Shown: positions 1,906 to 44,711 of the stretch, in pieces
Layout: each line of letters begins with the position of its first letter
Position numbering within the stretch: position 1 is the first letter of the stretch
Made by a program: the position numbers and the translations under genes
Origin: an uncultured Planctomycetota bacterium
Lineage (GTDB): Bacteria > Planctomycetota > Brocadiia > CAIUPP01
Direction of reading: 5' to 3'
Assembly (NCBI GenBank): GCA_903901045.1
Contig: CAIUPP010000068.1
Span: 1-64,000, forward strand
Length of the DNA: 64,000 bases
Notes under the pieces: model-generated
What the model was told of the DNA's origin: nothing
The model's database searches: none
Seen by the model: the letters and a program-made list of their open reading frames with translations, nothing else

Positions 1906-3531
1906 TTGACCCCTGCATCTCGATTGAAATTCCTATGCCGTCCGCTTTGGGACCAGACCGTTTCGCGCGATCCGATCGGACGCCTCTGGCGGCGCGATTA
2001 TACCCTCTGGAAGCCGGAACCGGAAGAGATAAGCAACCGCCTGGGCTGGCTGGACCTGCCGTTCTGCATGCGCGCCGACGCAGCGGAGGTCAACGCCTTC
2101 GCCGGGCAGGTGCGCCAGGAGGGGATCAACAGCGTCGTCCTGCTGGGCATGGGCGGGAGCAGCCTCTCGGCCGAGGTGTTGCGCATCGCGCTCGGCGAGA
2201 ACCCCGGTCAGCCGCGAATGCATGTGCTGGACTCGACCGTTCCTGAGAGGGTGGAGCGCGTCACCCGCAGCATCGACCCGGCTCGCACGCTCTTCCTCGT
2301 CTCCAGCAAGTCGGGGGGCACCATCGAAGTCATGTCGCTCTATCGCCATTTCCGCAAGCTCACGGAGGCGGCGGTGGGCGCGGGGGCGGGGAGCCATTTT
2401 GTCGCCATCACCGATCCGGGCACGAGCCTGGAGCAACTCGCGCTGGATGAAAAATTCCGCCGCGCGTTCATCAATCCCCCCGACCTGGGCGGGCGTTACT
2501 CGGTGCTTTCCTATTTCGGGCTTCTCCCCGCGGCGCTCATGGGGCTGGATGTCGTGCAACTCCTCTCGCGCGCGGGAGAGATGGCGCGCTCCTGCGGCGT
2601 GGAAGTCCCCGCGGAGGACAACGCCGGGGCATGGCTCGGGCTGGTCATGGGCTGCATGGCGGTGCTCGGGCGCAACAAGCTCACCATCATCACCTCGCCG
2701 AAACTTGCCGGATTCGGCCTCTGGGCGGAGCAACTCGTGGCTGAAAGCACCGGCAAGGAGGGGAAGGGAATCCTGCCGGTCGCAGGGGAGCCGTTCAACG
2801 CGCCAGGCGTTTATGGAGAGGATCGCCTTTTCACCTACCTGCGACTGGCCACCGACGATTGCACCGAATCGGACCGCCATGCCCGCGAACTTCATGAAGC
2901 GGGGCAGCCGGTGATGAGCATCGAATTGCGCGATATGTACGACCTCGGCGCCGACTTCTTCCGCTGGGAGTTCGCCGTCGCCGTCGCGGGGGTCTGCCTG
3001 GAGATCAATGCCTTCGATCAGCCGAACGTCGAGGAGAGCAAGCGCAACTCGCGGCGGATACTTGAGGAGGTCCAGAAGGGGGGCGCGCTGCCGAAGCTCG
3101 CCGACGTGGGGGACCCCGTCGAACTGATCCATTCCGCGCAGCCGGGGGGCTACGTGGCGCTCATGGCCTTTGCCGAACAGACCCCGGAGAGCGATGCCGC
3201 CTTCAATTCCCTGCGCAATGCCATTCTGACCAGGCGCAAGCTGCCCAGCACGCTGGGCTACGGGCCGCGCTTCCTGCACTCCACCGGCCAGTTCCACAAG
3301 GGAGGGCCGGAGGGAGGGCTGTTCATCCAGTTCACGGCGGACTACCGCAAGGGTGAGCCGATCCCCGGCGCGTCCTACGACTTCGCCACGCTGGCGACGG
3401 GACAGGCGATAGGGGATTTCGAGGCGCTGCAAGCGAACGGACGGCGCGTCGTGCGCGTGCATGTGGGCGAGCCGGCGCAACTGCCCGCGCGCATCCGCGC
3501 CATCGAAAGCAGGCTTGAGCAGAAGAGGTAG
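1906..3531 (+). CDS. pgi: Glucose-6-phosphate isomerase
   Basis: Interconverts glucose 6-phosphate and fructose 6-phosphate in the cytoplasm. The 541-residue protein has the SIS-domain signatures: LGMGGSSLSAEVLR, the sugar-phosphate loop VSSKSGGTIE, a GGRYSVLS segment, EINAFDQPNVEESK (the family's FDQPGVE-type motif) and the late HSTGQFHKGG histidine and lysine region. The sequence resembles the Pgi half of transaldolase-Pgi fusions more than the E. coli enzyme, but no transaldolase domain is present. The start is a TTG with GAGAGGAGAG just upstream. The last codons and the following 30 bases recur at 18928-19000. Confidence 0.93.
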   Translation: MTPASRLKFLCRPLWDQTVSRDPIGRLWRRDYTLWKPEPEEISNRLGWLDLPFCMRADAAEVNAFAGQVRQEGINSVVLLGMGGSSLSAEVLRIALGENPGQPRMHVLDSTVPERVERVTRSIDPARTLFLVSSKSGGTIEVMSLYRHFRKLTEAAVGAGAGSHFVAITDPGTSLEQLALDEKFRRAFINPPDLGGRYSVLSYFGLLPAALMGLDVVQLLSRAGEMARSCGVEVPAEDNAGAWLGLVMGCMAVLGRNKLTIITSPKLAGFGLWAEQLVAESTGKEGKGILPVAGEPFNAPGVYGEDRLFTYLRLATDDCTESDRHARELHEAGQPVMSIELRDMYDLGADFFRWEFAVAVAGVCLEINAFDQPNVEESKRNSRRILEEVQKGGALPKLADVGDPVELIHSAQPGGYVALMAFAEQTPESDAAFNSLRNAILTRRKLPSTLGYGPRFLHSTGQFHKGGPEGGLFIQFTADYRKGEPIPGASYDFATLATGQAIGDFEALQANGRRVVRVHVGEPAQLPARIRAIESRLEQKR

Positions 3532-24324: not shown

Positions 24325-24354
24325 CGGCCCGCAGGAGAGCGCCTTTGCTAAATT

Positions 24355-24399
24355 GAAAAGGCCCACAGGAGACAAGAAGTCCCTCCTGTGGGCCTTTTC
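24355..24399 (+). terminator. Strong rho-independent terminator after the polysaccharide operon
   Basis: Perfect 16-17-base stem (AAAAGGCCCACAGGAG and its complement) around a short loop, ending in TTTTC. The A-tract on the left arm and T-tract on the right make it potentially bidirectional. The lower-G+C element begins directly after it. Confidence 0.9.
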
Positions 24400-24503
24400 A
24401 CTGGCTCCCCGATTTTGACGCTGCACAAACACGCCAATTTATAGCTTACGACCGTGCCCGCATCAATTGGCACCCCAATCGTAAGAAAAGCCCCAGCCTA
24501 CGG

Positions 24504-29902: not shown

Positions 29903-30940
29903 TTAGCCGTCGTGGCCGTCAACGGGAGAAGGCTGAGACGCAGGACTCGTATTCGCCGCTTCGGGCAGTCGGATGCGGAGGTAGTCGGCAGCATTGTCGT
30001 CAAGATTTGTCTTGGCACGGTCGTAACGCATTGTGGTTTCAGGGCTGGCGTGCCTTGAAAAATTCTGTACCTGTCTTATCGAGGCCCCGCCGTCCAGTGC
30101 CAACGTAATTGCGGTCGCTCGCGCAGAGTGCGGCGCGAGCCGCGTGGCGTCCAAACCGGCCCGGCGGGCGTACTTCTTGTAGAGCACGGCAACCGCAGTT
30201 GTGGACAGATGCCGCCTCGGGTCATTGTATGTCTGATTCCTGCTCAAGGCGGGGAAAAGATAGCCGGTGATTTCCCGCGCCTGCGTGTACGCTTGGACTT
30301 CCCGCCACAGGGCCGGGGCAACTTTGATGACATCGTCCCGGCCTCCTTTGCCAAGCACTCGTAATACTGTGTGGCCCGATGTCTGCATGAAGTCTTCCGC
30401 CCGGACCTTCACGACTTCGTGGCGGCGCAGTCCACAGTAAAAGAGAAGTCCCAACATGATGAAGTCGCGCTGGCCTACCGCCATCCGCCTGTCGGGAGTC
30501 GCCAGGAGCCGTTCCGCTTCACGCTTTGTTAGGGCAGGCGTCTTGCCTTCGCGGCTAACCCTCGGACGCTTTACCCGAAAGAATGGGGACTTCTCAATCG
30601 CGCCTTCCTCGCGGAGTACCTCGTAAATACTGGCCACGACAGACACGCGCCGCGCCACGGTTGCGGGGGCCTTCCCCTGCGTGGTGAGAAGACTATCCCG
30701 AAAGGCGGTGGCTTGTTCTCTTGTCACGCTCGACAAGGCGCGAATCAAGTCTTCGCCCGTCACGCCGGGGGCAATTTCCAAGAAGCCTAAGAAGCTCTGG
30801 AAGTCCGTTTTATACGCCTTTCGCGTCAAGGGCGACAATTGGCCCGTGAGGAATGCGTTGACGGCCCTTGCGCCGTCTTCCCGCTTCGCGGGGGCAAGCC
30901 TGCCCCCCAGATCGGCCCTTACGATGCTTTCCATGCCCAT
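29903..30940 (-). CDS. Tyrosine recombinase / phage-type integrase (XerC/D-like)
   Basis: A 345-residue site-specific recombinase. An N-terminal SAM-like core-binding domain (residues 25-125) precedes the catalytic domain with R172 (CGLRRHE), K198 (LGKGGRDD), H271-x-x-R274 (PHSARAT), H297 (SRHASPETT) and the nucleophile Y306 (MRYDRAK), so all catalytic residues are present. It stands alone, leftward, in the middle of the element rather than at an end. This suggests a composite element, an internal inverter or an older integration event. The promoter is at 31075-31103. Confidence 0.9.
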   Translation of the reverse strand: MGMESIVRADLGGRLAPAKREDGARAVNAFLTGQLSPLTRKAYKTDFQSFLGFLEIAPGVTGEDLIRALSSVTREQATAFRDSLLTTQGKAPATVARRVSVVASIYEVLREEGAIEKSPFFRVKRPRVSREGKTPALTKREAERLLATPDRRMAVGQRDFIMLGLLFYCGLRRHEVVKVRAEDFMQTSGHTVLRVLGKGGRDDVIKVAPALWREVQAYTQAREITGYLFPALSRNQTYNDPRRHLSTTAVAVLYKKYARRAGLDATRLAPHSARATAITLALDGGASIRQVQNFSRHASPETTMRYDRAKTNLDDNAADYLRIRLPEAANTSPASQPSPVDGHDG

Positions 30941-31367: not shown

Positions 31368-31389
31368 GCATTAGAAGGAGGTCATGCCG

Positions 31390-31725
31390 ATGGGCGAGTA
31401 CTACCGATTGCATCCTGGGATGCTCATTACCTGCGGAGTGAAAGCGTTTTGTGACGAACATGGCGCGTGGTGGATGTTGGACATCCTGTGGTCGTATCAG
31501 CCTCAATGCCGGAAGGACAAGATGCTCCGAGAAATACAGTTCTGGAAGTTCGAGAAGCCGACGCCGGACGCCAGCACCATCACGGCCATCTGCGAACGCG
31601 ATGGTGGCGATGTGGCCATTACACAGGAAGTGCCCTACACGGACTTCAGGCCGCAGTCCTGCCGCCTATGGGTTGCCCCCGCCGATGGGGAGCAATGGGT
31701 CATCATGCTGCCGGAGGAGTATTGA
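31390..31725 (+). CDS. DUF6876-like small protein
   Basis: A 111-residue acidic protein. LITCGVKAFCDEHGAWWMLDILWSYQPQC at residues 12-40 resembles the opening of the DUF6876 family (TDGVKYLAEAAGAYWLLDAI pattern), known from mobile elements without assigned function. The strand-rich remainder ends SCRLWVAPADGEQWVIMLPEE. AGGAGG at 31375-31380 is nine bases from this ATG and only three from an earlier one at 31384, so 31390 is preferred. The stop lies two bases before the SymE-like start, indicating an operon. Confidence 0.6.
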   Translation: MGEYYRLHPGMLITCGVKAFCDEHGAWWMLDILWSYQPQCRKDKMLREIQFWKFEKPTPDASTITAICERDGGDVAITQEVPYTDFRPQSCRLWVAPADGEQWVIMLPEEY

Positions 31726-31727
31726 CC

Positions 31728-31937
31728 ATGAAGAACGCCGAGAGCGAGGAGCGCACGTTCACAATTGACCGCATCGCTCGGAGCAAGGTAGAAGGCGGAT
31801 ACCTGTACTATCCATCCTTGCGCCTCGTGGGTCGTTGGCTCGAACGAGCCGGGTTTCAGTACGGATGCCGTGTCACAGTCACAGTAGAGTCCGGGCGGCT
31901 GGTCATTACGCCACGAAAAACGCCTGACGCCACGTGA
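31728..31937 (+). CDS. SymE-like small basic protein
   Basis: A 69-residue protein with the SymE/AbrB-derived core YPSLRLVGRWLERAGFQYGCRVTVTVESGRLVITP at residues 29-63, matching the C-terminal domain of SymE. SymE in E. coli is an SOS-induced toxin or nucleoid-condensing protein controlled by the antisense RNA SymR. In many mobile elements SymE-like genes lie beside restriction genes, as here. I cannot see an antisense promoter with confidence. Confidence 0.78.
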   Translation: MKNAESEERTFTIDRIARSKVEGGYLYYPSLRLVGRWLERAGFQYGCRVTVTVESGRLVITPRKTPDAT

Positions 31938-32041: not shown

Positions 32042-32061
32042 CTCAACAGTCTGTTGACTTC
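32042..32061. repeat. 20-bp site with palindromic core, left copy
   Basis: CTCAACAGTCTGTTGACTTC, containing the palindrome TCAACAG-T-CTGTTGA. An identical 20-base copy lies at 42065-42084 in the same orientation. Flanking bases are also loosely alike (CCGC before, CCG-GCAGA after). The two copies bracket the 10-kb defence-like gene block. Confidence 0.85.
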
Positions 32062-32093
32062 CGGGCAGATAGCCATGCTGCCGAGGCCCCCAT

Positions 32094-32867
32094 TCAGGAT
32101 GCCTTCGCCGCCGACGCGCGAACAAACCGCGCGAGAGCGTCCGTCGCCATCTGAATTTCATCGGCGTTCAACTTCGGCTTCTCGTGGTCGAGGAATATAG
32201 CGAAGTTCTCTGGAGTCAGTACCCACACTTCCCGTCCTGTGGACGTGCCGTTCACGTACCAGCCTGGATAAGTGACGACGCCACGAAGGGGGAACGTCTT
32301 GCGCGTCTCCTTAGCCAGAAGTTGCCCTATCCAGTCGGCGTGCCACTTCGCCTGAAACACCGGATTCCTGTCGGGCGTGTAGCCGTTGACGGTCACGCTC
32401 TCTCCATCATAGACCACATGCACATCTCCCCTCATGGGCTTGCTCCTCATCTTTGTCTCAATGACGAACACCCCGCCCGGCCCGACGATGACATGGTCCA
32501 CATTGAACTTGCCGGGGACCTCGATATCATGCAGGACTTTGTAGCCCTTCTCGCGCAGAGCTTCCAGTGACTGTCCCACCGAGATTTCGCCTTCGCGGCC
32601 TAGTCTCAGATTTCGCAATTGGGGACGCATCCTGATGTATCTTCGCGCCATGACAGCCGCCCACACCGCAGTAGCAACCGTGAGGGGAATCGGCTGAGGT
32701 TGCCACCGAAGAAGCCACGCTGCCCATTCGTAGGCGCTGAACAAAGCAAAGAAGAACACCGTGACGGCCAGTGGCAGGAAGTCATCAAGCAGCCGGTCAA
32801 TTTCATCTTGCGTGGATTGACCGGGGAGGTGCAGAGGCTTTTCTTTCAGTGGTGAGCGCGTCTCCAT
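32094..32867 (-). CDS. Membrane-anchored NERD-domain nuclease-related protein
   Basis: A 257-residue protein. Residues 25-80 contain two hydrophobic helices (FLPLAVTVFFFALFSAY and PIPLTVATAVWAAVMA). The NERD domain follows from LRLGREGEISVGQSLEALREKGYKVLHDI through FNVDHVIVGPGGVFVIETKMRS; the D-x-V and ETK residues correspond to the nuclease-like catalytic core. NERD proteins are related to restriction-type PD-(D/E)XK nucleases and are frequent in defence islands. It is the outermost leftward gene of the cargo, 33 bases from the left 20-bp site. Confidence 0.82.
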   Translation of the reverse strand: METRSPLKEKPLHLPGQSTQDEIDRLLDDFLPLAVTVFFFALFSAYEWAAWLLRWQPQPIPLTVATAVWAAVMARRYIRMRPQLRNLRLGREGEISVGQSLEALREKGYKVLHDIEVPGKFNVDHVIVGPGGVFVIETKMRSKPMRGDVHVVYDGESVTVNGYTPDRNPVFQAKWHADWIGQLLAKETRKTFPLRGVVTYPGWYVNGTSTGREVWVLTPENFAIFLDHEKPKLNADEIQMATDALARFVRASAAKAS

Positions 32868-32913
32868 GATGATCCCTCAGTTCTTCCGAGTGTCATGTCT
32901 GTCCTTGGCGGTT

Positions 32914-33186
32914 TCACCCTTTGCGGACTTTTGACCATACAATCTTGGGGGTTCCCGTTTTGATCGTGATCGTGCGTGTCCGTGCGTTCTTGGGAACTTT
33001 TGGCCAAGTGAGCTTGACGACCCGATACTTGGACAGCGAGGAGCCGGCCGGTAGAGTGGCAACAAGTAGGGAGCCGCACATGCCGCAGTATTTGGCGTCC
33101 TCTGGTAAGCCACGGAACTGAAGACGACAACGGGTACAGAGGCAACGGCGTACAGGCTTCTTTGTCCCAGATTTCTGAGCAGGCAT
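32914..33186 (-). CDS. Small zinc-ribbon protein
   Basis: A 90-residue basic protein. CLCTRCRLQFRGLPEDAKYCGMCG at residues 15-38 is a CxxC...CxxC zinc ribbon, followed by about 50 residues rich in Lys, Arg and Thr. There is no enzyme motif. AAAGGAACC before the ATG at 33186 supports the start. It lies between the GIY-YIG and NERD genes on the same strand with about 50-base gaps, so it is probably co-transcribed; a DNA- or protein-binding accessory role is inferred. Confidence 0.6.
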   Translation of the reverse strand: MPAQKSGTKKPVRRCLCTRCRLQFRGLPEDAKYCGMCGSLLVATLPAGSSLSKYRVVKLTWPKVPKNARTRTITIKTGTPKIVWSKVRKG

Positions 33187-33237
33187 TTGGTTCCTTTCTC
33201 TCTCCAACGTGGAAAAGAAAACGCGACGCTCGCTCCG

Positions 33238-33966
33238 CTACCGCGGATTTCTACGAAGTTGACTCAACGGTACCCATGCGCCAGAGGCGTCTTTGTACTT
33301 CCAGAAGTCCCACCCATTCACAGGACGGCCTATGGCGGCTTTCCCGGCCCACGATGGTGAATTGTATCTGTGCCGAAGAAAGTAGATGCAACCTGTACGA
33401 CGCACGCGCGCCCGGTATGTCGTTCCCTTGTGCGTCGCACGAATTGTGAACCGCCGCTGGACGTAAGGCCCCAATGTCGGCTGGCGCGCCCCGTCTTCCA
33501 CCGGCGCGGCGAGCGATATTCGCCTGACTCTGCGCACGAGGCCGTCTCGCCCTCCCAATACGGTGTCCAACTGTTCCTCTTGCGCCTTCTTCATCTTGGT
33601 AAGGAGTTGGGATCGGAGGTTGGAAGCGTGAGGCAGTCTTCCCGTGGAAGCGTTCCCGCGAGGGGCGGCGATCCGCATGACGAGCGACTCAAGTTCTTTG
33701 ATGTGGTCGGCCTTCCGCACGAGGTAGAGGCTGAATCGGTCCCACTTGCCCGCGTGCTTGTCCCGGAGGTGATGATTGATCCGCGTGCGCAGATTCGTTG
33801 CCAGCCCCACATAGTAGAGGTGGGAGCCTTTGTAGAGGGCGTAAACGCCGTGCTGCCGCCCGACCAGTTGGGTCAATTGTTTGGGGAAGCCGGAGAAGAC
33901 TTTGCTGGAGACCTGTTCGAGGTAGCCGGAGACCAAGTGCTGCGTCTTGCGGACTCGCCGCGCCAT
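33238..33966 (-). CDS. GIY-YIG nuclease with C-terminal RAMA-type domain
   Basis: A 242-residue protein. HGVYALYKGSHLYYVGLATNLRTRI at residues 39-63 is a GIY-YIG motif (variants GVY and YVG), with Arg60 in the catalytic position and Glu91 or Glu93 as metal ligand. The last 60 residues (YRARVRRTGCIYFLRHRYNSPSWAGKAAIGRPVNGWDFWKY...WVPLSQLRR) match the RAMA domain, found in restriction and methylation systems and thought to read modified DNA. The combination suggests a modification-dependent or methylation-partnered endonuclease. The start at 33966 has GGGAGGG upstream. It is divergent from the methyltransferase gene. Confidence 0.82.
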   Translation of the reverse strand: MARRVRKTQHLVSGYLEQVSSKVFSGFPKQLTQLVGRQHGVYALYKGSHLYYVGLATNLRTRINHHLRDKHAGKWDRFSLYLVRKADHIKELESLVMRIAAPRGNASTGRLPHASNLRSQLLTKMKKAQEEQLDTVLGGRDGLVRRVRRISLAAPVEDGARQPTLGPYVQRRFTIRATHKGTTYRARVRRTGCIYFLRHRYNSPSWAGKAAIGRPVNGWDFWKYKDASGAWVPLSQLRRNPR

Positions 33967-34000
33967 GTTGCGCCCTCCCAAGGTAGCTCCAAGACGCCCC

Positions 34001-34015
34001 CGCGCATTGTGCGCG
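34001..34015. promoter_or_regulatory. Palindrome CGCGCA-TTG-TGCGCG between divergent nuclease and methylase genes
   Basis: Perfect 6-base-arm inverted repeat in the 149-base divergent gap between the GIY-YIG and methyltransferase genes. This is a typical place for an operator or control-protein box; no controller gene is adjacent, so function is unproven. Confidence 0.45.
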
Positions 34016-34114
34016 CCATATTGACATGTTTCACCTCTGGAGGCAAGTGCGCAACTTCTGCAAAAGGTATTCCTGATGCCACTTGCAAATGCCAACCGAG
34101 GGCGGTAGAGTTCT

Positions 34115-37100
34115 ATGGCCAGTACGAACAGCGGGACAAGACTGGCACATGTGTTGAATCCGGTCAGAGAACAGTGTGAGGGCCGCTCACCCGTGACGAA
34201 CAATACTGAAACGCGGAAAAATGAAGTCTCCTTCTGCGCGGATGTCAAAGCATGGGCACAGATGCTCTTCGCCCAACACCCCGAATGGCCTTTCGGTGAT
34301 GCTCACATCGAGGAATACGGCACGGGCAACAACAAACGCCAGGACTTACGCATCCTGGACCGAGAGCATCGAACTCCGATCCTCTCCGGCGAAGTCAAAA
34401 TGCCCGGCACGCTCGAAGGCCGGACTCCTTACAATCCTGAACTCATGCTCGACGCATCACAGAAGGCGGAGAACTGCCGCGCACGGTTCTTCTTCACTTG
34501 GAACGTCAACACATTTGTCCTCTTCGACCGCAGTCTTTGGGATAAGGACATCTATGAACGCCGGTTGAAGGAATGGGACTTGCATCTGGACCTGCGCAAC
34601 ACCGGCCAGTGCAGGCTGCCCGAAGTGGAAGCGTACATCCGCGACACGTTCCTTCCTCAGTTCTTCGCGGAGTTCGCGGACATCGTCCTCGACAAGAAAC
34701 CCGACTGGGCGATGCCGCCGGACGAGGTGTTTATCCGTTCCCTCGAAAGCCATCTCCGCTGGCCGCTGGATGGAACCCGCGATTTCCTGGCGGAGCAGTG
34801 CAAAGACAAGGTGTTCTTGGGCCGGTTCTGCCAGTGGCTCACGGAGGACTTGCAGTGGAGCGTTGACCCAAAGAACGTTGAGCACTGGCGCAAGATTCTG
34901 GATCGTGCCACGCGCACCCTCTGCTACGTCTTCTGCAACCGGGCCATCTTCTACGATGCCATTCGCCCCAGGTATGAGGATCGGTTGCCGAAGCTCAAGA
35001 TGCCGTCGGACAAAGTAGAGTACGAGAAGAAGTACCGCTACTTCAGGGAATGTTTCGCTGACGCCGTTGACGCCACAGGCGACTATGAGCCGGTCTTCTA
35101 TCCGCATGTGGATGATTGGGTAGGCGCGCTCGTCTTCGGCTCTCCGCACGCCTGCCAAGGTTGGAAAGGCGTCCTGGCGAACCTCGATCAATACAATTTC
35201 CGCGACATCCCCCACGATATCATCGGCGGCATTTTCCAGAAGCTCATCGCACCAGAAGAGCGCCAGAAGTTCGGACAGTTCTTCACCCATGAAGACATCG
35301 TGGATGTCATCAATGCGTTTTGCATCCGCCGGGGCGGGGATACGGTGCTGGACCCGGCCTGTGGTTCAGGCAGCTTCCTCGTGCGCGCGTACCATCGCAA
35401 GGCGTGGCTCGGCGAGCATAGGGGCGGCGGGCGGCGGCATCAGGACCCGCACAAGACCCATCAGGAGCTTCTACAGGAAGTTTACGGGTGCGACATTGCT
35501 CTGTTCCCGGCGCACCTGGCGACATTGAATCTCGCTTCGCGCCACATTGAGGACGAAGACAATTACCCCATTGTCCGCCGAGGGAACTTCTTTGAGGTGA
35601 TCGAAAAGCCGGAGGCTTTCTACAGCATCCCCATGCGGACGCCAGAGGGCGGGAAGACGAAGTTTCAGGTCGCGCTACCTATGCTCGACGCCATCGTTGG
35701 CAACCCGCCGTATGTTCGCCAGGAACTTATCCCCAAGCTGGCGAGCATCAAGCGCGGGCGCAACGAGAGCGACCAGTCCTTTGAGAGCCGCCAGAAAAAT
35801 AGCAAAGAACACCTACAGTATCTCGCCAGCAGCGCATGGCCCGGACTTGTCCTGACCGGCCGAAGTGACCTGCACTGCTACTTTTGGCCCGTGGCGACAA
35901 AGCGTCTGAAGGAAGGCGGCTACTTCGGTTTCCTCACCAGTTCAAGCTGGCTGGACGTGGAATACGGCTTCCCCCTGCAAGGCTGGATTCTCAGCAATTT
36001 CAAGCTCTTGGCGATCCTTGAGAGCGTGGACGAACCGTGGTTTGAGGACGCTCGCGTGAAGACGTGCGTTGCGATCCTCCAGCGGTGCAGCGATGAAAAG
36101 GCGCGCAATGACAATGTCGTGAAGTTCGTTCGGCTGCAAGTACCGCTGGCGGCTATTCTGGGAGATCACGAACCCGGCGATGAGTCTGCGCGGCAGGAAG
36201 CAGCGATGAAACTGCGCCAGTTCATTGACTCCACGAAGGACGCCTATACCGATGAGCGCCTGCGTATCATCCCGGTGCCACAAGCCGATCTGTGGAAGGA
36301 AGGCGTCGAGGCAGGCAAGGTATTGGCGAAAGTGCAACCAGAGCCGGAAGCTACAGATGAGGATGATGCGGAGGAAGAAAGTGACACCCCTCGTGACGGT
36401 TCCCAGGGCAGCTACATGCCCGGCACGTATGCCGCCGGGAAATGGGGCCGCTTCGTCCGCGCACCCGACATCTACTTCAAGATCATGCGGCAGTACGGGG
36501 CGCGGTTTGTGAAGTTCGGCGAGATTGCCGACATTCGTTTCGGCATCAAGAGTGGGTGCGATGCCTTCTTTATGCCGCGCGACGTGACGAAGGAGATACT
36601 CGGCAAAGTAAGGAACGGCCTGCCGTGGAATGACGTAGGGCTGATGTCCTCCTGCACGCTCAAGGAGATTGAGAGCGGGAAGGTGAGCATCGTTCAGGCC
36701 GGTGACAAGACCCGTCATCCCGTCGAAACGGAATACCTGCGCCCAGAAGTCCACAGCCTGATGTCCGTGGATCGTCCTGTCGTGCGCGCCCGTGACTTAG
36801 ACAGAGTTGTGCTGTGGGTGAAGAAGCCGCTCAAGGAACTCACCGGCACGCACGTGGCCAGCTATATCCGGTGGGGAGCAAAGCAGACGTTTGCATCGAA
36901 TAAATCGAAGGCTGTCCCCGTGCCGGAGCGGAGCACGTGTGAAGCACGGCCAACGTGGTATGACCTGACGAATGCCGCTGTTGGCGTTGCATTCTGGCCA
37001 ATGGCCCAGAAGTATCGGCACATTGTTCCTGCGAACCCTGACGGTTTAGTATGCAATCACAACCTCTTTTACATAATGCCCGCCCTAGCGAAAGCAGAGG

Positions 37101-38071
37101 CAACGGCTCTCGCTGGCGCACTCAATTCGACAATCACCGGACTTGTGAAGCATTTCTTCGGCCGATACGCTGGTGCGGAGGGCACGCTGAAGACAGAGGT
37201 TGTTGACACGCTGCTGCTGCAAGTTCCCGACCCCAGAGGCGTATCGGAAGAAACGGCTCGCCGCATTAGCAAGGCTTTGCGGTCAATGGGTGACAGACCC
37301 GTGACGCATCTTGTTGAGGATGCTCTTCTCGAATGCCATTCATCCGAACGCCTGCGGGAGATTCTTGCATCGCCCCCAACCCTTCCGAAAGAATTACAGC
37401 AGGAAGATCGGCGGGAGCTTGACGATGCGGTCCTCGAATTGATGGGCGTCTCCAATCCGAAGGAGCGCAAGACTCTTCTGGATGAACTCTATTTGGAGAC
37501 AACGCTCTACTATCGGTATCTGCGCACGCAAGACATTCAGTCAATGGAAAACCGCGCCACGGGCAAGCAGCGCAAGTTGACGGCGGAGGATATCGCCGCC
37601 AGCATTTGGGATTCGCTTGACGCGGCAGATCAGGGGCCACGATTGGTGGATTGGCTGGCTGAACGGCAGGTGACAACCAGCGCCGTCCAAATTCCTGACG
37701 GAAAAGCGAAAGCGCTCGGTCGCGGCCACATGTTCTCCTCTAGCGCCGTCGAATTCGCCCAGGGCAAGAGCCTCCATCAGGAAGAATACGCCGGACCCGG
37801 CCAAGCGGCCCTTGTCGCCACGCTTGCCAACCTCGACATTCGCGGCAGCGTGGAAGTCCCGGCGGATGATGCGACCTGCAAGCAATGGCGCAAAGACATC
37901 GAAGCCCGCCTCAAAGCCGCCTCAGAACGTCTCGACGAACTCGCCGCTACCCGCACAGGCGATCACAGCCTGCGTGAAGGAGTCGTGGGACTGCTCAAAC
38001 ACTGGTACGTCGTGGGGAAAGAAAGGCAGATTGCGAAAGGAGCCACCGATGCCGGAGAGCACGTCGGCTAA
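34115..38071 (+). CDS. N6-adenine DNA methyltransferase with probable fused N-terminal nuclease (type IIG-like)
   Basis: A 1318-residue protein. The N-terminal part has a PD-(D/E)XK-like pattern: HIEEYGTG, then KRQDLRIL and LSGEVKMPG around residues 68-97. The methylase core follows: FGQFFTHEDIV (about 385), SAM motif DPACGSGSF (about 413), and catalytic NPPY in DAIVGNPPYVRQE (about 529), the adenine-N6 signature. An acidic linker (ATDEDDAEEESD) separates the catalytic half from a probable target-recognition half (FVKFGEIADIRFGIKSGCDAFF, then WYDLTNAAVGVAFWP). Size and order suit a single-chain type IIG/IIL-like enzyme. An alternative GTG start at 34193 would shorten it by 26 residues. Confidence 0.83.
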   Translation: MASTNSGTRLAHVLNPVREQCEGRSPVTNNTETRKNEVSFCADVKAWAQMLFAQHPEWPFGDAHIEEYGTGNNKRQDLRILDREHRTPILSGEVKMPGTLEGRTPYNPELMLDASQKAENCRARFFFTWNVNTFVLFDRSLWDKDIYERRLKEWDLHLDLRNTGQCRLPEVEAYIRDTFLPQFFAEFADIVLDKKPDWAMPPDEVFIRSLESHLRWPLDGTRDFLAEQCKDKVFLGRFCQWLTEDLQWSVDPKNVEHWRKILDRATRTLCYVFCNRAIFYDAIRPRYEDRLPKLKMPSDKVEYEKKYRYFRECFADAVDATGDYEPVFYPHVDDWVGALVFGSPHACQGWKGVLANLDQYNFRDIPHDIIGGIFQKLIAPEERQKFGQFFTHEDIVDVINAFCIRRGGDTVLDPACGSGSFLVRAYHRKAWLGEHRGGGRRHQDPHKTHQELLQEVYGCDIALFPAHLATLNLASRHIEDEDNYPIVRRGNFFEVIEKPEAFYSIPMRTPEGGKTKFQVALPMLDAIVGNPPYVRQELIPKLASIKRGRNESDQSFESRQKNSKEHLQYLASSAWPGLVLTGRSDLHCYFWPVATKRLKEGGYFGFLTSSSWLDVEYGFPLQGWILSNFKLLAILESVDEPWFEDARVKTCVAILQRCSDEKARNDNVVKFVRLQVPLAAILGDHEPGDESARQEAAMKLRQFIDSTKDAYTDERLRIIPVPQADLWKEGVEAGKVLAKVQPEPEATDEDDAEEESDTPRDGSQGSYMPGTYAAGKWGRFVRAPDIYFKIMRQYGARFVKFGEIADIRFGIKSGCDAFFMPRDVTKEILGKVRNGLPWNDVGLMSSCTLKEIESGKVSIVQAGDKTRHPVETEYLRPEVHSLMSVDRPVVRARDLDRVVLWVKKPLKELTGTHVASYIRWGAKQTFASNKSKAVPVPERSTCEARPTWYDLTNAAVGVAFWPMAQKYRHIVPANPDGLVCNHNLFYIMPALAKAEATALAGALNSTITGLVKHFFGRYAGAEGTLKTEVVDTLLLQVPDPRGVSEETARRISKALRSMGDRPVTHLVEDALLECHSSERLREILASPPTLPKELQQEDRRELDDAVLELMGVSNPKERKTLLDELYLETTLYYRYLRTQDIQSMENRATGKQRKLTAEDIAASIWDSLDAADQGPRLVDWLAERQVTTSAVQIPDGKAKALGRGHMFSSSAVEFAQGKSLHQEEYAGPGQAALVATLANLDIRGSVEVPADDATCKQWRKDIEARLKAASERLDELAATRTGDHSLREGVVGLLKHWYVVGKERQIAKGATDAGEHVG

Positions 38072-38441
38072 GACGGAACGAATGGCGAACAAGTTCGTAT
38101 GGTACATGGGCGAGAAGTACCACAGTTCAAAGCATGTTCTCCGTGTGGCCACTTGGATTGGCTTTATCCTCAAGGGGATTGAGGGAGTAGCCGGGGCATC
38201 GTTGGATTACCGTCGCACACGGCAGGTTTCATTCAGATACAAGAGACGCACGTTCAAGGCTAAGTACAATCACCACGCCGGCCTCCGTGGAGGAATAGAC
38301 ATTGTTGAGGTTCTTCCCGGCAGAGGAGCACCCGAGGGAGAGCTTGCTGTCAGAATCAGGAACCTTGGTGAAGCAGAGGATGTCTATCTCACGTTGAAGG
38401 AACGCCTTGACAGATTCATTGCGCAGCAGCGCGGCGTGTGA
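38049..38441 (+). CDS. Small unknown protein coupled to the methyltransferase
   Basis: A 130-residue basic protein that begins 23 bases inside the end of the methylase gene, with AAAGGAG seven bases before its ATG, so translation is coupled. I do not recognise it. It has a hydrophobic segment (VATWIGFILKGIEGVAGASL) and a strand-rich middle (QVSFRYKRRTFKAKYNHHAGLRGGIDIVEVLPG). The C-terminal helix ends FIAQQRG. No cysteine cluster or nuclease motif is visible. A specificity, regulatory or immunity role is possible from position only. Confidence 0.55.
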   Translation: MPESTSAKTERMANKFVWYMGEKYHSSKHVLRVATWIGFILKGIEGVAGASLDYRRTRQVSFRYKRRTFKAKYNHHAGLRGGIDIVEVLPGRGAPEGELAVRIRNLGEAEDVYLTLKERLDRFIAQQRGV

Positions 38442-38492
38442 ATACGTGCGCTGACGGCAGCAGGGCCTCTACGATCCTTTCTGTGGAGTAGA

Positions 38493-41180
38493 ATGATGGT
38501 GCTGTTCAAGGATATTGCGGCTGTAGAGAACGGTGCCCATTTTCTCAACGTCGACATGCACATTCATTCGCACGGGGCATCTTCGGATGTGCAAGATGCA
38601 ACTATGACCCCTCAAGCGATTGTCAACTCGGCCGTAGCACAGGGGTTGAGCGTCATCGCGATTACGGACCACAACTCCAATAAGAACGTCGACGCAGCGC
38701 TAGAAGCCGCACAAAAATATGTTGGGAAGCTGCTCGTACTCCCAGGAGTTGAAGTGGCTACCGCACACGGGCATCTCCTTGTGTACTTCGCCCCCGAACG
38801 CACCGATAACCTTGCCAAGTTCCTCTCGCGGCTCGACCTAATCGGCGCAATGGGGGCCGAAAAGACACACACGACCAAGTCTATGGCCGACGCTATCGCC
38901 GAGGCCGAAAGACTTGGCGGTATTTGCGTTGCCGCTCATATTGACCGCGAGAAGACTGGGTTCGACATGGTCGCGCCAGGCTTTCCGAGTTGGAAGCGTG
39001 ATGTCATTACCAGTGTCGGACTCTACGGTGTTGAGTGTGATGCGAAGGACAGTCTATGTTGGTATTCCGAAGTTGATGATGCTGGTTCGGCTGGCGCTGA
39101 ACGCCGCAAGCTCTTGGAAGCGCGCAACCTTGTTTCAGGCCTTTCGGCCCGACGCGATCTCGCCCATGTGCAGGGTTCTGACTCTCATTCGATGGCGGAC
39201 TTTCAGAACGCTTCCCCCGACAAGATGTGGACGCGCGTAAAGCTAACCGAATTGAGCTTCGGCGCGCTGCGGATTGCCCTAGTCGACCCGACTGCTCGCG
39301 TACGCGCCAACGCGACAGTTCCTCGCTCCATTCCCCGCGTCCTTGGTATAGCGTTCACGGGAGGCTTCCTACACGGTGAAACGATTCACTTCAGCGACAA
39401 CCTGAATTGTTTCATCGGCGGGCGCGGGACTGGTAAGTCCACCGCGATCCGCGCGCTGGCGTATTCCTTCGGCATCAACGAGGAGTTTGCTGAATACGGG
39501 AACTGCCCGGATTCGGTTGTCGTTTACTGCGAGGGTGCGGACGGCGTACGGTATCGCTATGAGCGTTCTAAAGGTGGCGACATTTCCGTCAAGGCAAAGG
39601 AGGATGAAGCGATCACTGATGTTCCGACCGACGCCTTCCGAATTGAATATTTCGGGCAAGGTGAACTGGCAGAGGTTGCGAAAGATCCGCTCAATACCCC
39701 ACAACTGCTTCAAGAATTTCTTGATCGTCACACCAACTTGCGGGACCTCGCTGAACGCGAACTGTCCCTCGTAGCAGAGCTTCGTGAAAACGCCGCTCGT
39801 CTCAACCCACTTGAAACAAGTTTTTATCAGCTGACCGGAAAGCGGAAATCCCTGGCTGAGATTGAGGCGAAGCTGAAGATTGCCGAAGCAGGCAAGCTTC
39901 GTGAGGTTGTAGGCATACAAAGCAAGATTGCCTCGGAGAAGACAATACGGTCGACAGTCGAGAGCATCGTTCAGGAATACCAGACTGGCCTGACGCTGGC
40001 CAATTTTGAGAGAGACTACGCCAAGCTTACCGCCACCGCAGGCGATTGTACGACGGATTCGACATCGAAAAGTTTGTTGCAGGCCATTCAGAACGAACTC
40101 GACGCAACAAATAAGAACCTTGGACTGAAGGCTAAAGAAACCAATGCAATACTGAAGGAATGCGCAATCAGGCTTGCTAAACACTGTGCTGATTTGAAGA
40201 CAAACCATGCTCGCATGGATGGGGAAGTGGCGGCCAAAGTGGCGGACCTGAAAGCGAGAGGACTTGTCGGCAATATCGCCGAGTTGGAACAATTGCTTCG
40301 TCAGAAAGGAGCCACAGGAAAAGAGATTGCTCTGGTGGAGCAGCGAAGCAATGAGTTGGAACAGTGCCGTGCGCAGCGCCAAAAGCTTCTTGCCGATTTG
40401 GCCGAGGTCCGCTCCACGATGACCGAACGCCGAAAGGCGCAGCTCAAAGGCATCAACCAGAACCTCGCCGTGACGATCAAGGATTACACGGTATTCGTCC
40501 GCTACGATGAGGTCGGAATTGCCGACGAGTTCTGCAACTTTATTCAGAAGAAGATGACCGGCTCGTACTTTCAGGATCAGACTATTCGGCAAGTATGTGA
40601 GAGAACCACGCCAAGTGACCTTGCTAACTGGGTTCTTTGCAGAGACCACGGGAAGATTGCGGCATCTTCTGGAATCTCGTCCAATTGGGCGCAGGAAATA
40701 GTCACCCGCCTGTGTTATTGGAACACTCTGTTCGAGCTTCAAGTCCTCGCGAAGCCGCCCAAACCGATTATTACTGTACGAACGAAAACGCCACCGGCGA
40801 AGGACATCCCTGTTTCGCAACTATCCGATGGGCAACGTCACACCATTCTGTTGACGATTGCCATGCTGGCAGAATCCAATGTCCCGCTCGTCATTGACCA
40901 GCCGGAGGACGACCTCGATAATGCCTTCATTTTCTCCAGCATCGTTGCAAGCCTACGGACGATCAAGGAGCGCAGGCAGGTCATTCTTGTTACCCACAAT
41001 GCAAACATCGCCGTGCTTGGCGACTCAGAATTACTCCTGCCCATGCACCGCCAGAATGACTTTGGAAAAGCCGTTGAACGCGGGGCGATTGACCGTGAAG
41101 CGACAAAGATGTCAGTACAGAAAATCCTTGAAGGCGGTCCTGCGGCTTTTCTTCGCCGAAAAGAGATATATGGTTATTGA
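38493..41180 (+). CDS. PHP-domain / SMC-like AAA ATPase (TrlF-like)
   Basis: An 895-residue fusion. Residues 18-255 form a PHP phosphoesterase domain with metal motifs DMHIHSHG, ITDHN, PGVEV and GSDSHS. From about 290 an SMC/RecF-type ATPase follows: Walker A GGRGTGKST near 309, a coiled-coil insertion about 430-680, ABC-like signature QLSDGQRH near 775, Walker B PLVIDQPEDDLDN near 800 and LVTHNANI. The layout fits the TrlF-like AAA ATPases listed near defence genes; PHP proteins hydrolyse phosphodiesters or phosphates, so a nucleic-acid or nucleotide target gated by ATPase sensing is a fair hypothesis. It follows the 130-residue gene by 52 bases. Confidence 0.8.
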   Translation: MMVLFKDIAAVENGAHFLNVDMHIHSHGASSDVQDATMTPQAIVNSAVAQGLSVIAITDHNSNKNVDAALEAAQKYVGKLLVLPGVEVATAHGHLLVYFAPERTDNLAKFLSRLDLIGAMGAEKTHTTKSMADAIAEAERLGGICVAAHIDREKTGFDMVAPGFPSWKRDVITSVGLYGVECDAKDSLCWYSEVDDAGSAGAERRKLLEARNLVSGLSARRDLAHVQGSDSHSMADFQNASPDKMWTRVKLTELSFGALRIALVDPTARVRANATVPRSIPRVLGIAFTGGFLHGETIHFSDNLNCFIGGRGTGKSTAIRALAYSFGINEEFAEYGNCPDSVVVYCEGADGVRYRYERSKGGDISVKAKEDEAITDVPTDAFRIEYFGQGELAEVAKDPLNTPQLLQEFLDRHTNLRDLAERELSLVAELRENAARLNPLETSFYQLTGKRKSLAEIEAKLKIAEAGKLREVVGIQSKIASEKTIRSTVESIVQEYQTGLTLANFERDYAKLTATAGDCTTDSTSKSLLQAIQNELDATNKNLGLKAKETNAILKECAIRLAKHCADLKTNHARMDGEVAAKVADLKARGLVGNIAELEQLLRQKGATGKEIALVEQRSNELEQCRAQRQKLLADLAEVRSTMTERRKAQLKGINQNLAVTIKDYTVFVRYDEVGIADEFCNFIQKKMTGSYFQDQTIRQVCERTTPSDLANWVLCRDHGKIAASSGISSNWAQEIVTRLCYWNTLFELQVLAKPPKPIITVRTKTPPAKDIPVSQLSDGQRHTILLTIAMLAESNVPLVIDQPEDDLDNAFIFSSIVASLRTIKERRQVILVTHNANIAVLGDSELLLPMHRQNDFGKAVERGAIDREATKMSVQKILEGGPAAFLRRKEIYGY

Positions 41181-41303
41181 GAAGCTATTCTAATACGCCA
41201 TTGTTCCTTTCCGCCGTCAAGCTGTGGTGTCCCCTGATTGCTGGCGTGCTACTCGCCTCAGTCAGCCCATCCTTCAGAAGGCACTTTCGGGAAAACCGTA
41301 AAC

Positions 41304-41978
41304 ATGGGAAAGAATAGCAACGTCAAACCCGGCCTGAACATTCCGAAGGACGGCCACATTGAAGCGTTTGCGATCATCGTGGATTTGAATCAGTTTACAG
41401 CGATGGTGAGCAAAGCTGAGAAGGAAGGCGCGTTGATTGCGCAATTCACACGTGATGCACTGTATGGTGCTATTCGTGAGATCGAGGCGCAAGGCGGGGA
41501 AGTCGTTGGGTTCATGGGCGACGCGGTGTTAGGCATTATCCAAGACGGGGAGGGCGCGGCTATAGCCTGTTTCGGAATTGCGAAGGACCTTGATAGGCAA
41601 TGCGAGTATATCTCCGACGCCCAGTCCAGCCGCGACCGCAACTGGCCCTTCGCGCCCGGAGGGCCATCACTCAAAATCGCTATTGAGTATGGTTCAATGG
41701 ACATCTCAACGATCTCCAGCCGCCTCCTCGGCGAACAACGTCTGCTCATCGGTAGCCCCATCAACTACGCCGCACGCATCAGCGCTGCCGGAGAGGGAAA
41801 CCGCTGCGTAATCGGGCCGGTTGCTGCAAAGAAAGAGTTCAGTTCCTACACCCTTGACGGGCCACATTCGATCAGAGGGAAACGCGGCGAACCCGCCTAC
41901 AAATACTATTTCTTCCCGATGGATGACATCTGGATTGAAGGGCCAAGAGAGCCTGGGAAAGAAACGTATTGGGGGTAA
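41304..41978 (+). CDS. Class III nucleotidyl cyclase with altered base-specificity residues
   Basis: A 224-residue single-domain cyclase. Metal-binding aspartates are D27 (IIVDLNQFT) and D73 (VVGFMGDAV), and the transition-state pair is N154 and R158 in INYAARIS, so catalysis should be intact. The residue that selects purines four before the second Asp, usually Lys, is Gly69; the position seven before the catalytic Asn, usually Asp or Thr in adenylyl cyclases, is Leu147. Pycsar pyrimidine cyclases deviate at this pocket too. No sensor, HAMP or membrane segment is attached. It is the last gene before the right 20-bp site. No cyclic-nucleotide-binding effector is recognisable beside it. The ribosome-binding site is weak. 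Confidence 0.78.
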   Translation: MGKNSNVKPGLNIPKDGHIEAFAIIVDLNQFTAMVSKAEKEGALIAQFTRDALYGAIREIEAQGGEVVGFMGDAVLGIIQDGEGAAIACFGIAKDLDRQCEYISDAQSSRDRNWPFAPGGPSLKIAIEYGSMDISTISSRLLGEQRLLIGSPINYAARISAAGEGNRCVIGPVAAKKEFSSYTLDGPHSIRGKRGEPAYKYYFFPMDDIWIEGPREPGKETYWG

Positions 41979-42064
41979 GGGCCAACCATAGTATTCCCGG
42001 CAAGCGTTCTCGCCTACGACGCGGCCTCCTCCCCGCCTGTCAGTAGAGAAGTTGTTCCCCCGCA

Positions 42065-42084
42065 CTCAACAGTCTGTTGACTTC
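42065..42084. repeat. 20-bp site with palindromic core, right copy
   Basis: Identical to 32042-32061 and in the same orientation. It lies between the cyclase gene and the promoter of the recombinase operon. Confidence 0.85.
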
Positions 42085-42154: not shown

Positions 42155-42184
42155 TTGACAACAGAGGGCGTTCCCGGATATAAT
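42155..42184 (+). promoter_or_regulatory. Consensus promoter of the HTH-recombinase operon
   Basis: TTGACA at 42155-42160, an 18-base spacer and TATAAT at 42179-42184: both boxes are perfect. The start codon of the HTH gene is 28 bases beyond, giving a very short leader. A repressor, perhaps the HTH protein itself, would be needed to keep it silent. Confidence 0.85.
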
Positions 42185-42211: not shown

Positions 42212-42571
42212 ATGGACAAGAAAACGATGGGCACGTCAGGACGGCCTGAAGGTTCAGGGCGTTTGACGGAAGGCTTTCCCGTACCGAGGAAGTTTTCACC
42301 CGATGACATTTGCTCACTTCGCAAGAGGCTTGGCAAGCGATTGGGTCTGGCACGGCGTCTCTCGCAGCGGGACTTGGCGGACATCTTGGGCTTGAAGCGG
42401 CGCGTGGTGTGCGCGTGGGAACTTGGCACGAAGCACCCGTCTGCTGCGTCTCGACGCCTCATGGAGATTCTGACAATTGTGCCGGAGGTCGCGCCTGCCT
42501 TGATTGCGAGGGAAGGCGCATGGCGCAAACTCTTGGAGCGAAAGGCTCGGAAACGGAAGGTGAGCAAATGA
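42212..42571 (+). CDS. XRE-like helix-turn-helix regulator
   Basis: A 119-residue basic protein with a Cro/CI-type helix-turn-helix: LGLARRLSQRDLADILGLKRRVVCAWELGTKHPSAASRRLMEIL, residues 43-86. It is the first gene behind a consensus promoter, and its stop overlaps the next start (ATGA). The likely job is to regulate its own operon, which ends with the serine recombinase, in the manner of an element repressor. Ribosome-binding site TAGGAGG is eight bases upstream. Confidence 0.8.
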   Translation: MDKKTMGTSGRPEGSGRLTEGFPVPRKFSPDDICSLRKRLGKRLGLARRLSQRDLADILGLKRRVVCAWELGTKHPSAASRRLMEILTIVPEVAPALIAREGAWRKLLERKARKRKVSK

Positions 42572-42963
42572 GTAAACCGATTACGGCGGAACGACGCAAG
42601 AGGCTGGACGAAGAGAAAGCCGCGTTCGTCCGAGCGTGTGATAGACAGGTCGAGATGCTGTCAATGCTGGCCCTGCAACTTCCCGGTATTGACAGAGTGG
42701 CAGCGGAGCTTTCGGCTGTGCTCGTTCGCCTCTACGATAAATATGACCCGGATGCGTCTGATGGAACGGTTGAAAAACTTCATGCCTTGATTTTGCGGGA
42801 ATGGAAGAAGATGCCCGGCACGGAGACGGACAAGAAGAAGCTGACCGTCGTTCGGGATAGAGTCGTGAGCTTCATTGAGGACAAGGGGGCTGAGGTGGCA
42901 GAGGCAGATAAGACCCGCTTTGTCGAATTGATATCTTATGCCCTCTCTGCGGGAGCACGGTAA
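42568..42963 (+). CDS. Hypothetical helical protein in the recombinase operon
   Basis: A 131-residue, mostly helical, charged protein sandwiched between the HTH regulator (4-base overlap) and the serine recombinase (1-base overlap, TAATG). I do not recognise a family; no cysteine, nuclease or membrane motif is visible. The tight coupling on both sides suggests a recombination directionality or accessory factor, by inference from position only. Confidence 0.6.
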   Translation: MSKPITAERRKRLDEEKAAFVRACDRQVEMLSMLALQLPGIDRVAAELSAVLVRLYDKYDPDASDGTVEKLHALILREWKKMPGTETDKKKLTVVRDRVVSFIEDKGAEVAEADKTRFVELISYALSAGAR

Positions 42964-44678
42964 TGGACAAAAAGAAGGTGTCATTTTACGTCCGCGTCTC
43001 CACGGACGCACAGGTGAACAGAAGTCCTTCTATTGTGAATCAGCGGCAAAAACTGGAACAGGAGTTGAAGTATCGAAATGACCGCCGGCATGAGAACGAG
43101 GCGGAGTGGGTTCTCGCCGAGATATTTCAGGACAGGGGGCGCAGCGGGAAGGACACTGACCGGCCAGGTCTGCACCAACTTCGCGCCGCGATCCGTGAGC
43201 GCAAAGTTGACGTTGTGATGGTGACGGAACTAAGCCGCATCAGTCGGTCATTGAAGGACGCCTGCGAACTGTGCGAGGAGTTCAAGGCCGCGAACGTTGA
43301 CTTCATCTGCCTTAGAGAGCGATTTGACACAACTGACCCGGCTGGCAAGCTCTTTTTCCAGATTGCTTCGGCCTTCGCTGAGTTCGAGCGAGAACGGTTG
43401 ATCGAGCGAACGCGCGCCGGTGTGCTGCAAATGCGGTTGCGCGGGGAGTGGTTTGGACGCCGCATTCTTGGCTATAGGCCGACCAAGGGAGCGGAAGGCC
43501 GCGTGGTACTCGTGAAAGAAGAAGCCTCCGTGGTAAAACTTGCCTTTGACTTGTACGAGGAGTTGGGTAGCCTACAAGCCGTCGCGGATGATCTGAACCG
43601 CAGAGGGTATCGCACACAGAACTTCGAGCGTAGGACATGGGACAGCGACCAGAACGCTGAACGGGTGCAGCACCACGGCAACACCCCATTCTCGAAAGAG
43701 AACATCCGGGGCATTCTCTCGTCTCTCCGCTATACGGGGTTCGACGAAATCAATCCTGAGAACGAAGGCAAACCTGATCTCGACGGAGCAAAACTGGAAG
43801 ACCGCTATTATCTCGTAACCGGCAAATGGCCTGCCATCATCTCGCGGAGACAGTTCGACCATGTCCAAGAGTTGATCCGTGCGAACAGAGAAACGGGACA
43901 CAACCAGCAGAAGGAACGTTTCGTCAACTATCTCCTTCAGGGTCGCGTGTTCTGCGCGCGCTGCGGCGCGCGGGCATTCCAAGGGGCCGGGACGAGTAAG
44001 GGCATTGAGAAGGCAACAGGGAAGAACCGACTTCACGGCTACTATCATCTGAGGTGCGGATGCTTCAAGGGTAACGGACGGCAGAAAACCTACGGTATCC
44101 CCTCCGCCGGTCTCGAAACTGCCGTTCTGAAACGGATGGAACAACTTGCGGCGTCACCGGAACTGATGGACGCCATTTTCGCCGACGCACGGGCGCATCT
44201 GGGCGGCGAGGAGAGTAAGCGGCATGGTCAGATTGTCTCGCTCCAAAAAGAAGTTGACCGACTCGGAAAGGACATTTCCGGGGTCATTCGCCAGATGGCC
44301 AGCTTGTCCGATGACGAGGTGCGGAATACTGTTCAAGCTGAAATCCGCAAGATGGAGGAGGAGCGTTCGCGGAAAACGGCAGAGTTGGAAAGGCTTAGGT
44401 CCTCGCCGTCGCCAACACTCGCGCCACGTGATGAACTTGCGCGGACATTCGGAAGCTTGGGAGATGCGCTGAAGTGTTTATCCTCGGCTCAACAGCGGGA
44501 CCTACTCCGTCTTGTAGTGAACAGAATCGAAGTGGACAGGATGGAAATCAGAATAGGCTTGAACGTTGCTCTTACTGCCCCACTGCCTGACCCGAACAAA
44601 CTCCCCCTTCGCGGGGAGTTTGTTCGGCGGCCTGATTGGCTCCTCGGTGAGGACTTGAACCTCAAACCTAGTGGTTAA
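42963..44678 (+). CDS. Large serine recombinase (element integrase)
   Basis: A 571-residue recombinase. The N-terminal resolvase domain has R11 and nucleophile S13 in FYVRVSTDAQ, then VVMVTELSRISRS, and ASAFAEFERERLIERTRAG leads into helix E. The recombinase domain (170-270) is followed by a zinc ribbon (VFCARCGARAF...YHLRCGC) and a coiled coil about 420-490. The last 13 residues (WLLGEDLNLKPSG) are encoded antisense to tRNA-Asn including its CCA, so the natural C-terminus is supplied by the integration site. This supports the tRNA as the attachment site. It is the last gene of the HTH operon. Confidence 0.92.
   Translation: MDKKKVSFYVRVSTDAQVNRSPSIVNQRQKLEQELKYRNDRRHENEAEWVLAEIFQDRGRSGKDTDRPGLHQLRAAIRERKVDVVMVTELSRISRSLKDACELCEEFKAANVDFICLRERFDTTDPAGKLFFQIASAFAEFERERLIERTRAGVLQMRLRGEWFGRRILGYRPTKGAEGRVVLVKEEASVVKLAFDLYEELGSLQAVADDLNRRGYRTQNFERRTWDSDQNAERVQHHGNTPFSKENIRGILSSLRYTGFDEINPENEGKPDLDGAKLEDRYYLVTGKWPAIISRRQFDHVQELIRANRETGHNQQKERFVNYLLQGRVFCARCGARAFQGAGTSKGIEKATGKNRLHGYYHLRCGCFKGNGRQKTYGIPSAGLETAVLKRMEQLAASPELMDAIFADARAHLGGEESKRHGQIVSLQKEVDRLGKDISGVIRQMASLSDDEVRNTVQAEIRKMEEERSRKTAELERLRSSPSPTLAPRDELARTFGSLGDALKCLSSAQQRDLLRLVVNRIEVDRMEIRIGLNVALTAPLPDPNKLPLRGEFVRRPDWLLGEDLNLKPSG
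44592..44627. repeat. 15-bp perfect hairpin at the recombinase 3' end, beside the tRNA
   Basis: CCGAACAAACTCCCC pairs perfectly with GGGGAGTTTGTTCGG around a six-base loop. It lies inside the recombinase coding region, nine bases from the tRNA-Asn CCA. It may stop transcription from the tRNA or form part of the attachment site. Confidence 0.8.
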
Positions 44679-44711
44679 CAGCCACCCGCTCTACCATTGA
44701 GCTACCGAGGA
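44640..44711 (-). tRNA. tRNA-Asn (anticodon GTT)
   Basis: Cloverleaf on the minus strand: acceptor TCCTCGG/CCGAGGA, D stem GCTC/GAGC, anticodon stem GGTGG/CCACT (one G-T pair) with loop CTGTTAA giving anticodon GTT, and T arm TGAGG/CCTCA with TTCAAGT. Discriminator G is followed by an encoded CCA (44639-44637). Its 3' part overlaps the antisense 3' end of the serine recombinase gene and marks the right end of the integrated element. Confidence 0.96.

Follow-up and report, generated by a model that had tools for sequence, protein, structure and literature searches.

Several described systems each resemble one part of the locus analyzed here. Type IIG restriction-modification (R-M) enzymes (Eco57I/MmeI-like) carry a PD-(D/E)XK nuclease, an N6-adenine methylase, and a long C-terminal part in one chain. 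A possible role as 6mA-dependent type IV enzymes has been noted for two-domain GIY-YIG-RAMA fusions, the reading of 6mA by RAMA being unsettled (PMC11037411). Dnd defence loci can be flanked by stand-alone NERD and GIY-YIG (URI) nucleases, in some cases encoded on the other strand (PMC10853773). TrlF was named in the Photorhabdus temperature restriction locus, where none of the mutations selected fell in trlF (PMC7554251), and its defence role therefore rests on the relationship to Ppl and on its neighbours. Pycsar combines a PycC cyclase with PycTM or PycTIR (PMC11224242).

In the window (the whole 64-kb stretch of DNA that was analyzed), the type IIG-like enzyme has the same one-chain arrangement, but it is long (approximately 1290 aa) and distant from the characterised type IIG enzymes. 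The GIY-YIG-RAMA fusion has the same two domains in the same order, with intact motifs, as the type IV candidates (PADLOC candidate PDC-S14); it differs from them in sitting with an adenine methylase, and thus must tolerate that mark or read it differently. The edge placement of NERD and GIY-YIG nucleases at Dnd loci is much like that in this block. TrlF shares the full-length PHP and SMC-type ATPase of its family (NF045780; PMC7554251), but has no trlG or trlR neighbour as in Photorhabdus. The cyclase is, as in Pycsar, a single-domain class III enzyme, weakly PycC-like, whereas no TM- or TIR-type cyclic-nucleotide effector lies beside it.

The cargo comprises seven intact genes, bracketed by two 20-bp sites and transcribed outward from approximately 34.0–34.2 kb (Table 1). 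The seven-gene map of the sequence-only reading, an earlier interpretation of this DNA, needed only small corrections of start sites (zinc-ribbon gene approximately 33186, GIY-YIG/RAMA gene 33966, methylase gene near GTG 34193, small gene 38049, and cyclase gene 41304). All seven of its domain calls held up, and it was right in describing the cargo as of defence type and the element as foreign. The families of the genes and their intact active-site motifs were demonstrated, the catalytic motifs of the nuclease, methylase, PHP-ATPase, and cyclase genes being complete. The tight spacing of the four rightward genes makes a single transcript possible, in which the small gene, trlF, and the cyclase gene would be co-transcribed behind the methylase gene. 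The locus is an unlisted assortment of known defence modules and an ordinary kind of defence island. As relatives show, at least two or three distinct defence kits stand side by side in the cargo. The best explanation is probably a foreign island by tRNA-Asn, with a defence cargo of separately evolved modules.

Table 1. Features of the cargo block and of the surrounding element, with positions in the window, strand, and supporting evidence.
Feature	Position	Strand	Evidence
XerC/D-like tyrosine recombinase, backbone	29903..30940	-	NCBIfam/Pfam
20-bp site copy 1, contains TCAACAG-T-CTGTTGA	32042..32061	+	exact match
NERD-domain membrane-anchored nuclease	32094..32867	-	Pfam PF08378 2e-18; D...ETK motif intact
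Small zinc-ribbon protein, CxxC at two places	32914..33186	-	weak DZR 0.02
GIY-YIG nuclease-RAMA fusion	33238..33966	-	Pfam RAMA 8.8e-9, GIY-YIG 2.3e-4 (just under gathering score); PADLOC PDC-S14 2e-15
Divergent intergenic region between leftward and rightward genes	33967..34192	.	sequence
Type IIG-like restriction-methylation enzyme	34193..38071	+	Pfam N6_Mtase 5e-14, Eco57I 1e-12; PADLOC REase_MTase_IIG 1e-29
130-aa protein	38049..38441	+	start overlaps methylase end
TrlF: PHP phosphoesterase fused to SMC/Rad50-like ATPase with coiled coil	38493..41180	+	NCBIfam NF045780 439 bits
Single-domain class III nucleotidyl cyclase	41304..41978	+	PADLOC PycC 1.3e-9 (best family match)
20-bp site copy 2	42065..42084	+	exact match
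HTH_3-type regulator, head of serine recombinase operon	42224..42571	+	Pfam HTH_3 2.7e-4
Large serine recombinase, backbone	42963..44678	+	Pfam Resolvase 3e-37, Recombinase 1e-15
tRNA-Asn(GTT), island right edge	44637..44711	-	Rfam: only match

The type IIG-like enzyme contained an N-terminal PD-(D/E)XK motif (QDLRIL...LSGEVK), DPACGSG (motif I), NPPY, and a long C-terminal part, the nuclease motif and the N6-adenine methylase being joined in one chain, and its best matches were the type IIG models. Its relatives were 39–41% identical and came from the same phylum; at one of two such loci the gene stood alone by an integrase-like gene, and at the other it was followed by an ATP-binding protein that was OLD-like by eye. 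As the first module, the enzyme would methylate host DNA at adenine and cut unmethylated entering DNA. In the GIY-YIG-RAMA fusion, both domains were found in order, GIY-YIG at residues 44–79 (just under the gathering score) and RAMA at residues 183–244 (above it), with the GVY...YVG, R, and E residues present. In a genome of the same class, a relative (55% identical) immediately followed the gene of a type IIG-like enzyme of 1077 aa, and the methylase and GIY-YIG/RAMA genes therefore make a plausible R-M module. A second relative (38%) was located near a DNA methylase, and others were alone. This half of the block can soundly be read as an R-M module with accessory nucleases; the NERD protein, with two hydrophobic stretches at its N terminus, and the zinc-ribbon protein are its putative further members. 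GIY-YIG-RAMA, and possibly these two proteins, would serve as accessory nucleases, and the RAMA domain would probably read the adenine-modification state. The coupling of GIY-YIG-RAMA nucleases with type IIG adenine methylases merits a study of its own. At locus L179 (3279–7294), from a same-class genome, a type IIG-like enzyme is directly followed by GIY-YIG-RAMA, adjoining apparent housekeeping genes; this pair is compact and of interest for RAMA as a possible methylation reader.

TrlF matched its family model at full length (439 bits against a cutoff of 350 bits; residues 13–894 of 895 aa). The PHP and ATPase residues (DMHIH, DHN, E87, H149, SDSH, Walker A, LSxGQ, and DQPED) were invariant or nearly so in 37 sequences. 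The fold of the structural model (pLDDT 87) matched the PHP nucleases EndoQ (Z 20.7, rmsd 3.1, 224 residues) and RNase AM (Z 16.2, rmsd 3.0, 182 residues), as well as SMC/Rad50 heads (Z 16–19). The six closest relatives were 49–75% identical and came from several phyla, and no homologues of the methylase, the small gene, or the cyclase were found in their flanking DNA examined, which at L078 amounted to almost nothing. On plasmids, TrlF genes were found alone, within BREX loci, or by R-M genes. Among 130 proteins flanking approximately 40 TrlF genes, ResIII was the commonest Pfam family (5), HATPase_c_4 and AlbA_2 were seen four and three times, and DUF1016, DNA methylases, and NACHT approximately twice each, with no fixed partner. 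Since the neighbours of its relatives vary in this way, TrlF is a self-contained module, the second of the block. Its ATPase would probably sense DNA ends or replication structures, and the PHP domain would then cut nucleic acid, like Rad50-Mre11 in one chain. TrlF is a Mre11-Rad50-like nuclease-ATPase in a single chain, widespread on plasmids and almost uncharacterised, and merits its own study.

Against the model of anti-phage Ppl (NF042955), TrlF scored 176.7 bits, below the cutoff of 1000. At the TrlF loci L080–L138, the flanking proteins with AlbA_2 and HATPase_c_4 (Schlafen-type, TrlG-like) fitted trlG of the Photorhabdus temperature-restriction locus, suggesting that the trlF-trlG pair is recurrent. 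Among the six closest relatives, three TrlF genes looked broken: two were split by frameshifts near residues 243 (L079) and 510 (L081), and one stopped at approximately residue 421 (L083). This could be due to assembly error, or the gene could be costly and often lost.

Class III cyclases are all related to one another, and the family profile of the window cyclase matched those in PDB; its single-sequence model had a pLDDT of 31, too low to be of use. No close relative was found in related genomes, plasmids, phages, or viral contigs, and as the third module the protein would be an orphan class III cyclase. The 130-aa protein had no Pfam, PADLOC, or NCBIfam match for its scanned 106-aa part and no relatives in plasmids or 147 genomes. 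Compared with MADS (methylation-associated defence), the methylase, ATPase, and NERD genes showed weak domain-level matches to mad2, mad3, and MAD6, but the gene set of the window differs. MADS was rejected with scores far below the cutoffs (MAD2 51 against 720 bits, MAD6 22.8 against 460 bits), as was BREX (PglX at most 21 against 400 bits). Pycsar was rejected as well, the PycTM/PycTIR effector being absent beside the cyclase; the scanned neighbours of the cyclase (TrlF and HTH) gave no TIR, CNBD, or Pyc effector matches in Pfam or PADLOC.

The sequence-only reading had left the choice between one composite system and two adjacent ones (R-M plus PHP-ATPase/cyclase). In the composite case, the methylase would set the self mark, the nucleases would be effectors, TrlF the sensor ATPase, and the cyclase the alarm, with the 20-bp sites as the ends. 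The divergent block is indeed closed and tightly spaced, with an overlap of the methylase and small genes and with both sites at its outer ends, and a single rightward transcript would make joint action in this strain possible. However, the closest TrlF relatives were not accompanied by any other gene of the block, the methylase relatives in genomes G115 and G016 had no adjacent TrlF, cyclase, NERD, or GIY-YIG homologue, and the GIY-YIG-RAMA relatives accompany other methylases or occur alone. The seven-gene order was searched for via the methylase, TrlF, cyclase, GIY-YIG/RAMA, and 130-aa proteins in relatives and plasmids (with some of them also in phages and viral contigs), and was not found. 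A single composite system is accordingly not supported and is judged improbable: TrlF, the methylase, and GIY-YIG/RAMA occur independently in relatives with no common order, an outcome that the earlier interpretation had itself named as speaking against it. The exception to the independence of GIY-YIG/RAMA is its link to type IIG enzymes. The direct demonstration of independence from neighbours covers TrlF; close relatives for a comparison were found for neither the cyclase nor the 130-aa protein. The option of two systems was right, but the pairing of PHP-ATPase and cyclase within it was not recurrent. A Pycsar-like pair, in which the cyclase would make a cyclic nucleotide on infection and TrlF would be the effector in place of PycTM/PycTIR, is very unlikely. 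The two genes are adjacent on the same strand, with 123 bp from the TrlF stop to the cyclase start, PycC is the best family match of the cyclase, and in the alignment both catalytic, metal-binding Asp residues and N-x-A-A-R are kept, with the usual base-selecting Lys and Asp replaced. Against this, a profile search of the TrlF loci returned no class III cyclase directly beside another examined TrlF; the nearest cases were a generic cyclase 2.6 kb from the shortened TrlF of L083 and, at L056, a cyclase with another gene between it and a TrlF-like ATPase. A search for the window cyclase in the genomes from which the six closest TrlF relatives come, which had no positive control, found nothing. 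In addition, TrlF has no cyclic-nucleotide-binding domain recognisable by Pfam or NCBIfam, and the cyclase profile, which is dominated by ordinary cyclases, scored ordinary adenylate cyclases far above PaPycC. The cyclase might be an alarm cyclase. It is highly improbable that TrlF and the cyclase form an unrecognised signalling defence of two genes, with a non-standard cyclic nucleotide that is made on infection and licenses the PHP-SMC nuclease, and with type IIG/GIY-YIG-RAMA as a methylation guard. Separate modules remain the preferred reading, and the locus illustrates cleanly how a defence island is put together from modules of separate history; it also warns that a closed gene block should not be taken for one machine. 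An anti-phage role is predicted for the genes of the block, as are their substrates and triggers.

The surroundings of the block are those of a foreign island. GC falls from approximately 0.60–0.66 to 0.53–0.60 between approximately 24 and 45 kb, and GC3 is 0.59–0.75 in the island against 0.81–0.88 in the genes to its right. The 3' end of tRNA-Asn, which had not been mentioned in the earlier interpretation, meets the 3' end of the serine recombinase gene; a recombinase beside a tRNA 3' end is combined with foreign composition, as in an integrative island at a tRNA. The backbone that had been proposed outside the block (SymE, HU-like protein, HTH, and two recombinases) was supported by Pfam, and the other backbone genes included DUF6876, zinc-ribbon/TPR, and GYF_2 proteins. 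No long copy of the tRNA-Asn end was found at a left or far boundary in the 90.7-kb contig, and an orthologous empty locus was not obtained in relatives via the right-flank gene. Close relatives were found neither for the tyrosine recombinase of the element (197 genomes) nor for its 131-aa protein (247 genomes). At the left edge of the cargo, a DUF6876 gene is directly followed by a SymE-type gene (31384–31937). Perfect inverted repeats with 18-bp and 15-bp arms are located at 24354–24400 and 44592–44627, near both ends of the low-GC region, and are possibly terminators at the island edges.

The two identical palindrome-containing sites described earlier as bracketing the cargo were confirmed as exact. 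The sequence CTCAACAGTCTGTTGACTTC was present in two exact copies in the same orientation, in the 64-kb window and in the whole genome, where no further copies were found. No matches to the 20-mer were obtained in 100 shuffles, and none of the 150 simulated 64-kb sequences contained an exact 20-bp direct repeat, so chance is an unlikely origin of the pair. The contig has other exact repeats of at least 20 bp (a 22-bp direct repeat at 3492/18928, 15 kb apart, and a tandem repeat near 68.5/70.0 kb); the exact 20-mer alone is therefore weak proof, and the palindrome and the position outweigh its length. Each copy holds a perfect 15-bp palindrome (7-1-7), and of the ten palindromes of that kind in the window, two are the 20-bp sites. 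The repeats may, tentatively, be operators of a regulator of the element, either the HTH protein at 42224 or the SymE/AbrB-like protein at 31728. A perfect 15-bp palindrome is typical of a dimer site, and copy 2 precedes a perfect sigma-70 promoter (42155–42184; 12/12 match, TTGACA-18-TATAAT) by approximately 70 bp, in the 245-bp region ahead of the operon of the HTH, 131-aa, and serine recombinase genes. Copy 1, with the SymE stop on one side and the end of a convergent gene on the other, has no promoter-like match within 400 bp, however, and there are only two copies. Alternatively, the nearby tyrosine or serine recombinase would cross over at the repeats and excise or exchange the 10-kb block as a cassette, which agrees with the direct orientation, the exact bracketing of the cargo, and the recombinase genes on either side, but is rather doubtful. 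The 7-1-7 palindrome is short and tightly centred for the usual core of a tyrosine recombinase, and its arms are not extended, the similarity between the copies being confined to exactly the 20 bp and extended or accessory matches being absent. Composition is unchanged at the sites, the genome has no third copy, and near-copies did not exceed chance level in 294 relatives and were absent from viral contigs. For this pair, the operator reading has a slight edge over that of a recombination site. The palindromes are most likely binding sites for a protein of the element, a regulator or, less likely, a recombinase, with the HTH regulator at 42224 as a candidate binder. In the 22-bp direct repeat, the bases downstream of the copies at 3492 and 18928 are also similar.
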